Shown: piece by piece, positions 517 through 4,480 of the stretch | How positions within the stretch are numbered: the first letter of the stretch is position 1 | How the letters are laid out: every line of letters starts with the position of its first letter | DNA from: Phycisphaerales bacterium | GTDB lineage: Bacteria > Planctomycetota > Phycisphaerae > Phycisphaerales > SM1A02 | Direction of reading: 5' to 3' | Assembly (NCBI GenBank): GCA_009691725.1 | Contig: SIAP01000001.1 | Location: 96,128 to 160,127, forward strand | Length of the DNA: 64,000 bases | The notes under the pieces: generated by a model | Databases searched by the model: none | What the model saw: only the letters and a program-made list of their open reading frames with translations | What the model was told of the DNA's origin: nothing | Made by a program: the position numbers and the translations under genes

Positions 517-813
517 CTAGCGTGCGCTTGGGGACTTTGCATCGTCCGCCCTCCCGACCAAGTCGGCGGCAGCGATGCGTTCAATCTCGGTGCGGGCGCT
601 CTCGAGTACTTCACGGCAACGTCGCACCAGCGCCGCACCCCGTCGATACTGGCGCAGACTTTCGTCGAGCGGAACATTCCCCGATTCAATGCGGGCGATG
701 ATCGATTCCAGTTCCGCCAATGCCACCTCGTAGGTCAGCGTCTCGACAGGATCCCCCGCAGCCGTGGACTCGGTCTTGCTCTTCGAGGCACCTTTGGGTT
801 TCTGGTCGTTCAT
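517..813 (-). CDS. xseB: Exodeoxyribonuclease VII small subunit
   Basis: 98 aa, LTYEVALAELESIIARIESGNVPLDESLRQYRRGAALVRRCREVLESARTEIERI; start overlaps xseA stop. Confidence 0.93.
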   Translation of the reverse strand: MNDQKPKGASKSKTESTAAGDPVETLTYEVALAELESIIARIESGNVPLDESLRQYRRGAALVRRCREVLESARTEIERIAAADLVGRADDAKSPSAR

Positions 814-2288
814 GGCGTGCAGTCTAGTGATCCACCGTCGCGTTGAATCACCACCTGATCGATGACGCTTCCGACTCGACCATCTGCGAGCAGCGTCTCA
901 ACACGTTCGCCGACGTTCAGACTCATCGCGCGTCGAATCGGCGTGCCAGATGCGTCGACGGTGATCGAGTATCCGCGGTCGAGCACCGCTTGGGGACCAA
1001 TTGCGTGCAATGTGCGAGCTGCGGAATCCACTCTGTTTCGTGCGCTTTGCATGAGGGCAGTCCCTGCGCCCACGAGCGCTGCAGACATCATCGTGGTGCG
1101 AGTCTGCTCTGTGGTAATGCGGTTCGCTGGATGGAGCCGAGCCAAGCGTGCGTCGAACCCTGCACGTGCCTGATCGCGTCGATGGATGCACTGTCGCGTT
1201 ACATGCGCGAGCGCGGTCGCAATGCGCGCAAGGGCACTGGCATGGACCATCAATCCCGTGCGCGGATCGGACATTCCCCGCGAGCGAGCAGCCAATTCAA
1301 ACCGCGCCAGATCGCGCTGCACTCTCCCTCCTTGTGCGCGTGTCAAATGCCGAGCGAGTCCATCAAGTTGTTCGCGCAGCGTGTCGCGACTTGGGAGTGT
1401 GTCCGTCACCGCGCGCGAGGGGGTCGCAGCACGACGGTCTGCAACGAGGTCGGCGATGGTTGTGTCACTCTCATGCCCAACACCCGTGACGATGGGAGTC
1501 TTGCATGATCGAATCGCGTCCGCAACGATTCGTTCGTTGAACGCCCAGAGATCTTCTTGGCTTCCTCCACCGCGAACGAGAAGAATGACGTCGATCCCAC
1601 GCCGTGACGCTGCGGCATCAACTGCGGCGATCGCCGCAGCGATTCCAGCCGCCGCATGGGAACCCTGCACTCGAATGTCCACGGCGATGATCCTGGTTGC
1701 GGGAAATGCCCGCGCTGCCGCATCGAGGCAATCTGCCTCGGCCGCGCTATTGGCACTCGTCAGCAGTGCGATGCACATTGGCATCGCTGGGATCGCAACC
1801 TTTTGGGACGAATCAAAGTATCCCAGTGCACGAAGTTCGTTGCACAGTTGTCGATACCGCGCATCGAGATCGCCTGCCCCCACCGCTTCCATCTTTGATC
1901 CCTGAATCTGCGTTCTGCCTTGCGGCGGATAGTGCGTCACCGATCCGGTCAAGATCACCGCCATGCCATCCACGGGTGCGCAGACAGTCTGATCCGCAAC
2001 GGATCGAAACATCATGCAATCGATGCGCGAAGTTGCATCCTTGAGTGAGAAGTACCAATGGCCTTGGACCGCACGAAAGTTCGAGATCTCTCCAGTGACG
2101 CGGACATTGGTGAGCGCTCCCTCAAGCGCACTGCGAATAAGTTGCGACAGAGCTGTGACGCCCAGCGCGGGAGCTTCCGTCGTCTGTGCCGCGCTGGGTT
2201 TCTGCCGCGATTCTGGAGATCCATGCTTCGACATGGAGTCGAACAGTCCGCCAGCCGCGAGGGATGGATCAAAGGGCTTGCGCGTCAT
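810..2288 (-). CDS. xseA: Exodeoxyribonuclease VII large subunit
   Basis: OB-fold VTGEISNFRAVQGHWYFSLKDATSRIDCMMFR, LLVRGGGSQEDLWAFNERIVADAI, TGVGHESDTTIADLVADRRAATPSRA; start chosen at MTRKPFD (2288). Confidence 0.95.
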   Translation of the reverse strand: MTRKPFDPSLAAGGLFDSMSKHGSPESRQKPSAAQTTEAPALGVTALSQLIRSALEGALTNVRVTGEISNFRAVQGHWYFSLKDATSRIDCMMFRSVADQTVCAPVDGMAVILTGSVTHYPPQGRTQIQGSKMEAVGAGDLDARYRQLCNELRALGYFDSSQKVAIPAMPMCIALLTSANSAAEADCLDAAARAFPATRIIAVDIRVQGSHAAAGIAAAIAAVDAAASRRGIDVILLVRGGGSQEDLWAFNERIVADAIRSCKTPIVTGVGHESDTTIADLVADRRAATPSRAVTDTLPSRDTLREQLDGLARHLTRAQGGRVQRDLARFELAARSRGMSDPRTGLMVHASALARIATALAHVTRQCIHRRDQARAGFDARLARLHPANRITTEQTRTTMMSAALVGAGTALMQSARNRVDSAARTLHAIGPQAVLDRGYSITVDASGTPIRRAMSLNVGERVETLLADGRVGSVIDQVVIQRDGGSLDCTP

Positions 2289-2293
2289 GCGAC

Positions 2294-2300
2294 TATCGTA
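2294..2300. promoter_or_regulatory. Candidate bidirectional -10 element TATCGTA for recG (+) and xseA (-)
   Basis: TATCGT ends 7 nt before recG TTG 2306; opposite-strand TACGAT ends 7 nt before xseA ATG 2288. Confidence 0.6.
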
Positions 2301-2305
2301 GGGTC

Positions 2306-4477
2306 TTGAACGAATCGTTTGATCCAACTGCGCCGCGGCGAAGCGATCATCCACCCGCGACTATCGCGCCGATCGACCTGCGATTGGCGATCGGAGATCT
2401 CACTGGAGTTGGACCGCAGTGGAGTGCGCGGTTCGCACACCTTGGACTGCGAACAGTGGGCGATCTGCTGAAGCACCTGCCGCTGCGATACGAGACCGAG
2501 GCCGCCGAAGAGGCAGTCATTGAAGCGAAAGCGGCGACCGCGCAGAGCGAAACCACGCTCACGAGAACTGTGCGTGGCGAGATTCAGCGAGTGAAGCACA
2601 TTCCGTCACGACGACCTCGAACAGAGGCACTGCTTGCTGACGAGAGCGGGACGATTCGCCTTGTGTGGTTCAATGCGCCGTGGCTGGTGAAGAAGATTCA
2701 TCCAGGGGCGCGCGGAATCGCCCAAGGAAAGGCGAAGTTGCGCGGCGGCTATCTCGAGATGGTGAATCCAAAGTGGGAGGCGCTCGGTGATGGGCTGGGA
2801 GAGGAACGGGTGATTCCTGCGCAGGTCGGTCGCCTGCGACCGATCTACCCCGCCACCGAAGACTTGCAGTCGGCGCGCATCGACCGCGTCATGTCCGCAA
2901 TTCTGCCCGGCGCACTGGCATCCATTGTGGATCTCGTGCGCCCCGAACTGATCGCGCAGCGCGGACTCATCGCGCTCAACGATGCGTACCGAATGGTGCA
3001 CTCCCCGCTCGACGGCAACGAGGCAGAAATCGGTCGCACGCGATTGGCATATGACGAACTCTTGTCATTGCAATTGGCGATGGCGATGCGCCGATGGCAG
3101 GTCCGCCATGCGATGCACGCGCCTGCTTTGCCGATGAGTGCCACCGTTGAAGCAAAGATTCTCTCGCGCATTCCCTTTGAACTGACGGATTCTCAGATGC
3201 AGGTGTGCGGTGAGATTGCCCACGATCTTTCTGACACGATGCCGATGAATCGACTTCTGCAGGGCGATGTTGGCTCTGGGAAGACTGCGGTTGCGCTCTA
3301 TGCGATGTTGATTGCAGTGGCGCATGGTCATCAGGCAGTGTTGCTCGCACCAACCGAGATCCTGGCAGAGCAGCACATGCACACTCTGTGCGGGATGCTC
3401 GACGGAAGTCGCGTACGGATTGCTGCTTTGACTGGGAGCCTGCGGACTGCCGACCGAGCCGTGGTGGTCAACGGCCTTGCATCTGGAGATTTCGACATTG
3501 CCATCGGCACGCATGCGCTGCTCGGCGATGAGATTCGATTCAAGAGTCTCGCACTTGCGATCATCGATGAGCAGCACCGATTTGGAGTTGAGCAGCGCGC
3601 TGCCCTGCGCACAAAGGGACCAACCCAATCGCAGGTGCCGCACACGCTCGTCATGACTGCCACACCCATTCCGCGAACGCTCGCGCTGTCATTCTTCGGC
3701 GACCTCGATATCAGTTCGCTCCGTGGCCGTTTGCCGGGGAGGACTGCACCGACGACCCGTGTGATGCCGACTCATCGCAGTGGTGAGGTCTATTCGTGGC
3801 TGCAGTCGCGCGTCGCGCGCGGCGAGCAAGCGTTCGTTGTTGTGCCGGCTGTCCACGAGAGCGATCTTGGCTTGAAGGATGTCGCCTCGCATGCCGAGGC
3901 ACTCCGCACGGGCGAGTTGGCGGGGTGTCGCATCGGGCAACTGCATGGTCAATTGAAGCCCGCCGAGTGTGAGAGTGTGATGGAAGACTTTCGCCTCGGG
4001 AAGCTTGATGTGCTTGTTGCGACGAGTATCGTCGAAGTGGGAGTTGATGTTGCCAACGCAACGGTGATGGTGATCGAGCACGCCGAACGATTTGGGTTGG
4101 CACAACTGCACCAATTGCGCGGTCGCGTTGGCCGCGGGGGAAAACCGGGATTCTGCGTTCTGATTGGAGACCCACCGACAGAGATTGCACAGCGACGATT
4201 CGACGCAATCGCATCAACCACGGACGGATTTGAGATTGCAGAGTTGGATCTGAAGTTGCGCGGTCCTGGCGAGTTCTTTGGGGCACGGCAATCAGGGCTT
4301 CCCCCGCTGCGCGTCGCAGATCTCTCACGCGACTTTGAGCTCTTGATGAATGCGCGGACCGACGCGCAACAATGGATCGGTGGGACGGGTGATCTCACAG
4401 AAGCGCGCGACCTGCCGCTCCGTCGCCGGGTCCTCGGCCAGTATGGCGCCGCGCTTGGCCTGAGCGACATCGGCTAG
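2306..4477 (+). CDS. recG: ATP-dependent DNA helicase RecG
   Basis: LLQGDVGSGKTAVALYAM, IDEQHRFGVEQR, MTATPIPRTLALSFFGDLD, QLRGRVGRGGKPGFC; proposed TTG start 2306 (LNESFDPTAP). Confidence 0.95.
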   Translation: MNESFDPTAPRRSDHPPATIAPIDLRLAIGDLTGVGPQWSARFAHLGLRTVGDLLKHLPLRYETEAAEEAVIEAKAATAQSETTLTRTVRGEIQRVKHIPSRRPRTEALLADESGTIRLVWFNAPWLVKKIHPGARGIAQGKAKLRGGYLEMVNPKWEALGDGLGEERVIPAQVGRLRPIYPATEDLQSARIDRVMSAILPGALASIVDLVRPELIAQRGLIALNDAYRMVHSPLDGNEAEIGRTRLAYDELLSLQLAMAMRRWQVRHAMHAPALPMSATVEAKILSRIPFELTDSQMQVCGEIAHDLSDTMPMNRLLQGDVGSGKTAVALYAMLIAVAHGHQAVLLAPTEILAEQHMHTLCGMLDGSRVRIAALTGSLRTADRAVVVNGLASGDFDIAIGTHALLGDEIRFKSLALAIIDEQHRFGVEQRAALRTKGPTQSQVPHTLVMTATPIPRTLALSFFGDLDISSLRGRLPGRTAPTTRVMPTHRSGEVYSWLQSRVARGEQAFVVVPAVHESDLGLKDVASHAEALRTGELAGCRIGQLHGQLKPAECESVMEDFRLGKLDVLVATSIVEVGVDVANATVMVIEHAERFGLAQLHQLRGRVGRGGKPGFCVLIGDPPTEIAQRRFDAIASTTDGFEIAELDLKLRGPGEFFGARQSGLPPLRVADLSRDFELLMNARTDAQQWIGGTGDLTEARDLPLRRRVLGQYGAALGLSDIG

Positions 4478-4480
4478 GCT
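4475..4480 (+). promoter_or_regulatory. Candidate leaderless -10 TAGGCT for ABC operon
   Basis: Ends 7 nt before ATG 4487. Confidence 0.45.

Follow-up and report, generated by a model that had tools for sequence, protein, structure and literature searches.

The heptamer TATCGTA, which lies at the centre of the 17-bp gap between the divergent genes xseA and recG in a Phycisphaerales genome, very probably acts as a bidirectional leaderless promoter for both genes, judging from its sequence context. Its sequence, spacing and conservation, and a genome-wide class of promoters of the leaderless type, are directly established, and the features concerned are collected in Table 1. A first-pass annotation of the window (the whole 64-kb stretch of DNA analysed here) had read the junction as one -10 element serving two divergent leaderless genes, and this reading is supported by the conservation of the heptamer in 25 of 25 loci, by the leaderless class in the genome and by the published geometry of bidirectional promoters. 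Bidirectional -10 elements and leaderless genes are each known; joining both is new. The analysis goes further than the first-pass reading in three respects: the spread of the layout through the lineage, a second geometry, and an xseA start-codon A that also provides the -18T of the predicted recG promoter.

Table 1. Features of the xseA/recG junction and its neighbours, in window coordinates. Family-library matching covered recG, xseA, xseB and the ABC ATPase.
Feature	Position	Strand	Remarks
Shared symmetric -10 heptamer TATCGTA, putative bidirectional promoter	2294..2300		Kept in 25/25 genus-type loci
recG -10 hexamer TATCGT, 6 nt to TTG	2294..2299	+	T2294 is the base required by recG alone
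xseA -10 hexamer TACGAT, 6 nt to ATG	2295..2300	-	A2300 is the base required by xseA alone
recG, ATP-dependent DNA helicase	2306..4477	+	NF008168, E=7e-226; TTG start, putatively leaderless, aligns with relatives' GTG/ATG
xseA, exodeoxyribonuclease VII large subunit	813..2288	-	TIGR00237, E=8e-113; ATG start, putatively leaderless, kept in relatives
Predicted xseA +1 (A of ATG, - strand)	2288		Sequence geometry; + strand T is -18 of predicted recG +1
Predicted recG +1	2306		Sequence geometry; 18 bp from predicted xseA +1
TAGACT, 7 nt before xseB ATG; putative ordinary one-way leaderless-type promoter	821..826	-	Present in genus mates too
xseB, exodeoxyribonuclease VII small subunit	517..813	-	TIGR01280
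TAGGCT, 6 nt before ABC-transporter ATPase ATG; putative ordinary leaderless-type promoter	4475..4480	+	Overlaps recG stop codon

Geometry of the xseA/recG junction

The junction sequence CATGCGACTATCGTAGGGTCTTG (2286-2308) occurs once in the window, even when three mismatches are tolerated. Read outward from the heptamer, the + strand runs TATCGT-AGGGTC-TTG toward recG and the - strand TACGAT-AGTCGC-ATG toward xseA. On either side the spacer from hexamer to start codon is 6 nt, which puts the closing T of each TANNNT at -7 and its opening T 12 bp from the start codon, the spacing of leaderless genes. The earlier statement that both hexamers end 7 nt before the starts is correct when counted as position -7, and the 18 bp that it gave between the two starts is borne out by the first bases of the start codons (2288 and 2306). 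TATCGTA also shows the reciprocal pairing of -7T with -11A on a single two-stranded -10 element. T2288, opposite the A of the xseA ATG, also stands at -18 of the predicted recG promoter; owing to the TTG start of recG, the corresponding base of the xseA promoter is A. Both hexamers are far from TATAAT, and no -35 element of the classical sigma-70 kind (TTGACA-like, 16-18 bp upstream of the -10) was found at the junction.

Bidirectional promoters arising from -10 symmetry were described by Warman et al. (2021 Nat Microbiol, as cited in PMC10268837). Their divergent transcription start sites (TSSs) are 7-25 bp apart and usually 18 (PMC12825309, PMC10268837), which is the commonest distance at the bidirectional promoters of E. 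coli and Salmonella (PMC12825309, PMC10268837); 10 and 23 bp are further common distances (Warman et al., PMC12825309). At 18 bp, the -7 of each promoter pairs with the -11 of its partner, and the T facing an initiating A functions as a -18T (PMC10268837), a -18T from the opposite +1 being common, not obligatory (PMC10268837). The xseA/recG junction resembles these enterobacterial promoters in its shared -10, its reciprocal -7/-11 positions and its predicted 18-bp start distance (PMC12825309, PMC10268837), 18 bp being the optimum in the former. A -18T supplied by the opposite start (PMC10268837) would be shared for recG, with A at that position for xseA. Some relatives have a predicted distance of 23 bp, which matches another preferred distance in PMC12825309. 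Unlike the enterobacterial promoters, which yield leadered mRNAs or antisense RNA, it would serve two protein-coding genes that are both putatively leaderless, and some bases would belong to a start codon and to the promoter at once; the unit has also been kept from genus to genus.

We propose that a bidirectional promoter of the housekeeping sigma factor has TATCGTA as its shared -10 element. At any one time RNA polymerase would bind in one of the two orientations and start one RNA, at 2288 (xseA) or at 2306 (recG). Both start sites would be the first base of a start codon, and since the RNAs would begin there, both mRNAs would be leaderless and would not need a Shine-Dalgarno sequence. The -7 position of each promoter would pair with the -11 position of its partner, the -18T of the recG promoter would come from the A of the xseA ATG, and a -35 element would be dispensable, with upstream contacts falling within the first codons of the opposite gene. 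The actual start sites, the two-way activity, the mutual exclusion, the leaderless translation and the TTG start are inferred.

Leaderless-type promoters in the host genome

Zheng et al. (2011, PMC3160421) describe leaderless genes in which a TANNNT -10 element adjoins the start codon, its first T about 12 bp upstream, and leaderless TANNNT genes likewise figure in Cortes et al. (2013, PMC3898074) and Zhong et al. (2025, PMC12340547). To place the junction in its genome (2.07 Mb, 51 contigs), we based genome statistics on stretches totalling 366 kb. When ATG and GTG codons downstream of TANNNT were counted without gene calls, they peaked at gaps of 6 nt (61) and 7 nt (45) above a background near 27, and in the same count the peak was absent for control motifs and for TTG. 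With a home-made gene caller applied to the 366 kb, 50 of 202 called genes had a possible start at a gap of 6-7 from TANNNT, against 3-8 at control gap pairs. Since about a quarter of the sampled genes carry TANNNT 6-7 nt before the start, leaderless expression appears ordinary here. Shine-Dalgarno-like motifs were weakly enriched among the genes called by this simple caller, and a -35 signal sought upstream in the aligned leaderless set was not found. Together, these findings show that leaderless-type -10 elements are a major and normal promoter class in this genome, the xseB and ABC-ATPase neighbours of our gene pair included.

The junction thus resembles published leaderless TANNNT genes (PMC3160421, PMC3898074, PMC12340547) in its distance of about 12 bp to the start codon and in having neither a Shine-Dalgarno sequence nor a clear -35. 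Those genes come from Actinobacteria, Deinococcus-Thermus and others, whereas here the host belongs to the Phycisphaerales and one -10 would serve two genes. PMC3160421 and PMC12340547, as searched, mention neither divergent or bidirectional use nor planctomycetes; a comparative paper notes one planctomycete with a signal that may be of the leaderless or the S1 kind (PMC5397173). In the titles and abstracts of the open-access literature we found no combination of leaderless with bidirectional or divergent promoters, or of leaderless with start mapping in Phycisphaerales or planctomycetes.

In the 64-kb window, TANNNT is found at less than half its expected frequency (117 observed, 260 expected), and TANNNTA occurs 3 times against 6.5 expected. 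Many of the surviving TANNNT copies throughout the window stand directly upstream of start codons, as if spurious -10 elements had been purged.

Conservation of the heptamer and the recG start codon

TATCGTA is present in all 25 genus-type loci, at a gap of 6-7 nt to xseA and of 6-8 nt to recG. These loci are the window, 23 close relatives and one locus from another genus of the family (L012), with the junctions of L034, L007, L009 and L042 placed by pattern; they comprise 19 distinct sequences and 16 distinct spacers, some being one genome in two collections. Since the loci are related and some are duplicated between collections, the 25 are not independent events. Many relatives are freshwater MAGs. 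The gaps to xseA and recG were (6,6) in 11 loci, (6,7) in 11, (6,8) in two and (7,6) in one. The first-pass annotation had staked its reading on the heptamer persisting in close relatives that keep the gene pair, and this check did not refute it, the heptamer being kept with spacing nearly unchanged. The seventh, symmetric base, the one after the hexamer, is free in the aligned leaderless set, where it is A at 12% of ordinary leaderless -10s, but it is invariant at recG/xseA, for which one-way use does not account. That T2294, the recG-only base and seventh of the xseA hexamer, is invariant here and free elsewhere argues for two-way use. The centre of the heptamer, TCG (2296-2298), is invariant in the genus too, at positions that the genome's leaderless -10s leave nearly free.

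The recG start codon is GTG in 22 of the 25 loci, ATG in two and TTG in the window alone. In four relatives (L031, L032, L033, L036) an in-frame TGA 6 nt ahead of the recG GTG closes the frame. Over the first 75 nt of recG, 0 of the 19 distinct sequences have a stop in the assigned frame, whereas 16 and 7 of them have one in the other two frames. The start codons expected to work without a leader are AUG and GUG, and the xseA ATG and the relatives' recG GTG or ATG fit this; the TTG of the window is unusual. The TTG start predicted at first pass is supported by its alignment with the relatives' start codons, four of which have the closing TGA just upstream, but it is less certain because TTG makes up 1 of the 50 leaderless starts in the genome sample.

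Two geometries in the wider family

Most of the genera examined retain recG and xseA as a divergent pair, and at 37 of the 40 loci added recG was detected next to xseA. A symmetric -10 in 18-bp or 23-bp geometry was found in 65 of 78 distinct family junctions, compared with a mean of 10.9 and a maximum of 19 in shuffled sequences. TANNNTA occurs in 48 of the 78 and ANNNTANNNT in 34, some junctions carrying both; the second pattern, typically ATGATATCGT, sets the predicted starts 23 bp apart. The gap from xseA to the -10 is 6-9 nt at nearly all family loci. A recG gap of 6-8 nt is confined to the genus and a few other loci (L012, L220, L233, L206, L209, L212, L227); elsewhere in the family the recG leader is short (about 11-23 nt) or longer. 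Since recG lies about 11-23 nt from the -10 in several other genera, double leaderlessness is not universal, but the symmetric -10 and a leaderless-type xseA persist.

These observations fit a single, more tentative reading, to which we give somewhat less than even weight as a whole. Bidirectional leaderless promoters would be a standing regulatory class in this Phycisphaerales family; the heptamer and two start codons (about 23 bp) would make up all the 5' regulatory DNA of two genes, some bases of the start codons also serving the promoter; and the recG/xseA unit would have switched between 18-bp and 23-bp geometries in evolution with its symmetry kept. If true, such a switch would imply that selection has favoured either coupling or mutual exclusion between the expression of RecG and that of exonuclease VII. 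Symmetric -10 elements are known to fire both ways. At this junction the predicted bidirectionality involves a coding gene on either side and has been kept over many genera, so that whether selection maintains it can be tested through sequence comparison and point changes at positions 2294 and 2300. The junction would also show how little DNA can control two genes, would extend leaderless-type promoters to a planctomycete lineage for which the papers searched do not report them, and may offer a route to correcting start codons in these genomes.

Alternative explanations

TATCGTA could be a one-way leaderless promoter for xseA only, with recG expressed from a promoter within xseA or from another start (ATG 2264, TTG about 2384) and the symmetry incidental. 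xseA is indeed the more constant partner, its gap holding nearly everywhere and that of recG varying between genera, and our reading gives the window's recG an unusual TTG. We nevertheless consider this explanation unlikely, since the base that recG alone requires does not vary in 25 of 25 loci, the recG start keeps its 6-8 nt from the heptamer in every genus-type locus, the TGA just upstream closes the recG frame in four relatives and the alternative ATG at 2264 is not conserved. The heptamer might also conserve its letters as codons, if one gene started further upstream and read through it, and in the window each of the two frames continues open upstream of its start (that of xseA as far as GTG 2354, that of recG as far as GTG 2186). 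However, the phase between heptamer and recG shifts (gaps of 6, 7 and 8), the same in-frame TGA closes recG in four relatives, and a TA...TA arrangement that alternates between 18-bp and 23-bp geometry is not a codon pattern, so we give this hardly any weight.

An operator is very unlikely too: in this view the heptamer would belong to a short palindrome bound by a regulator of the two repair genes, such as a damage-response repressor, and would not be a -10 element. Its symmetry, its position between two repair genes and a centre conserved beyond what TANNNT requires would suit an operator. On the other hand, seven base pairs are too short for specificity, the flanks are poorly conserved, and other gene pairs carry other symmetric heptamers (TAGCATA, TAGGATA, TATCCTA) at equal spacing, as a -10 element would predict. 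Chance symmetry was rejected as the main explanation for the shared heptamer. In the 366 kb, double sites spaced 6/6 numbered 2, against 0.05 expected under a second-order Markov model. For the genome pattern searches a reversed-pattern control was set aside, ATNNNAT being by its nature much more frequent than TANNNTA, and Markov and shuffle controls were used instead. One 6/6 double site of the same genome (C50:43884-43906) was dropped since its left frame is just 39 aa long.

Other divergent pairs sharing a heptamer

The first-pass annotation had singled out the coupling to two DNA-repair genes as unusual, but this coupling is nothing special, since phoU/pdxJ and further pairs share the layout. 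In each of the 19 genus genomes the divergent phoU/pdxJ pair carries TAGCATA or TAGGATA (L141, L174-L192; G000:C47:9404-9426), with gap-6 starts for phoU in all 19 and for pdxJ in 18. The shared-heptamer layout of recG/xseA is also found, in some members, at a FAD oxidoreductase/Gfo-Idh-like pair (L134, L150) and at a truncated-globin-like/secreted-protein pair (L148, L151); the names of these genes, phoU and pdxJ included, were read from translations. Most double-site matches in distant genera appear to be chance, with no open frame on one of their two sides. The pdxJ frames at L179 and L190 contain one in-frame TAG each, which may be an error or mark a broken gene. In another genus of the family, CATNCGTGTATGCTAC recurs in several genomes (g19), beside an ABC ATPase gene in L164, and is apparently a conserved two-way site.
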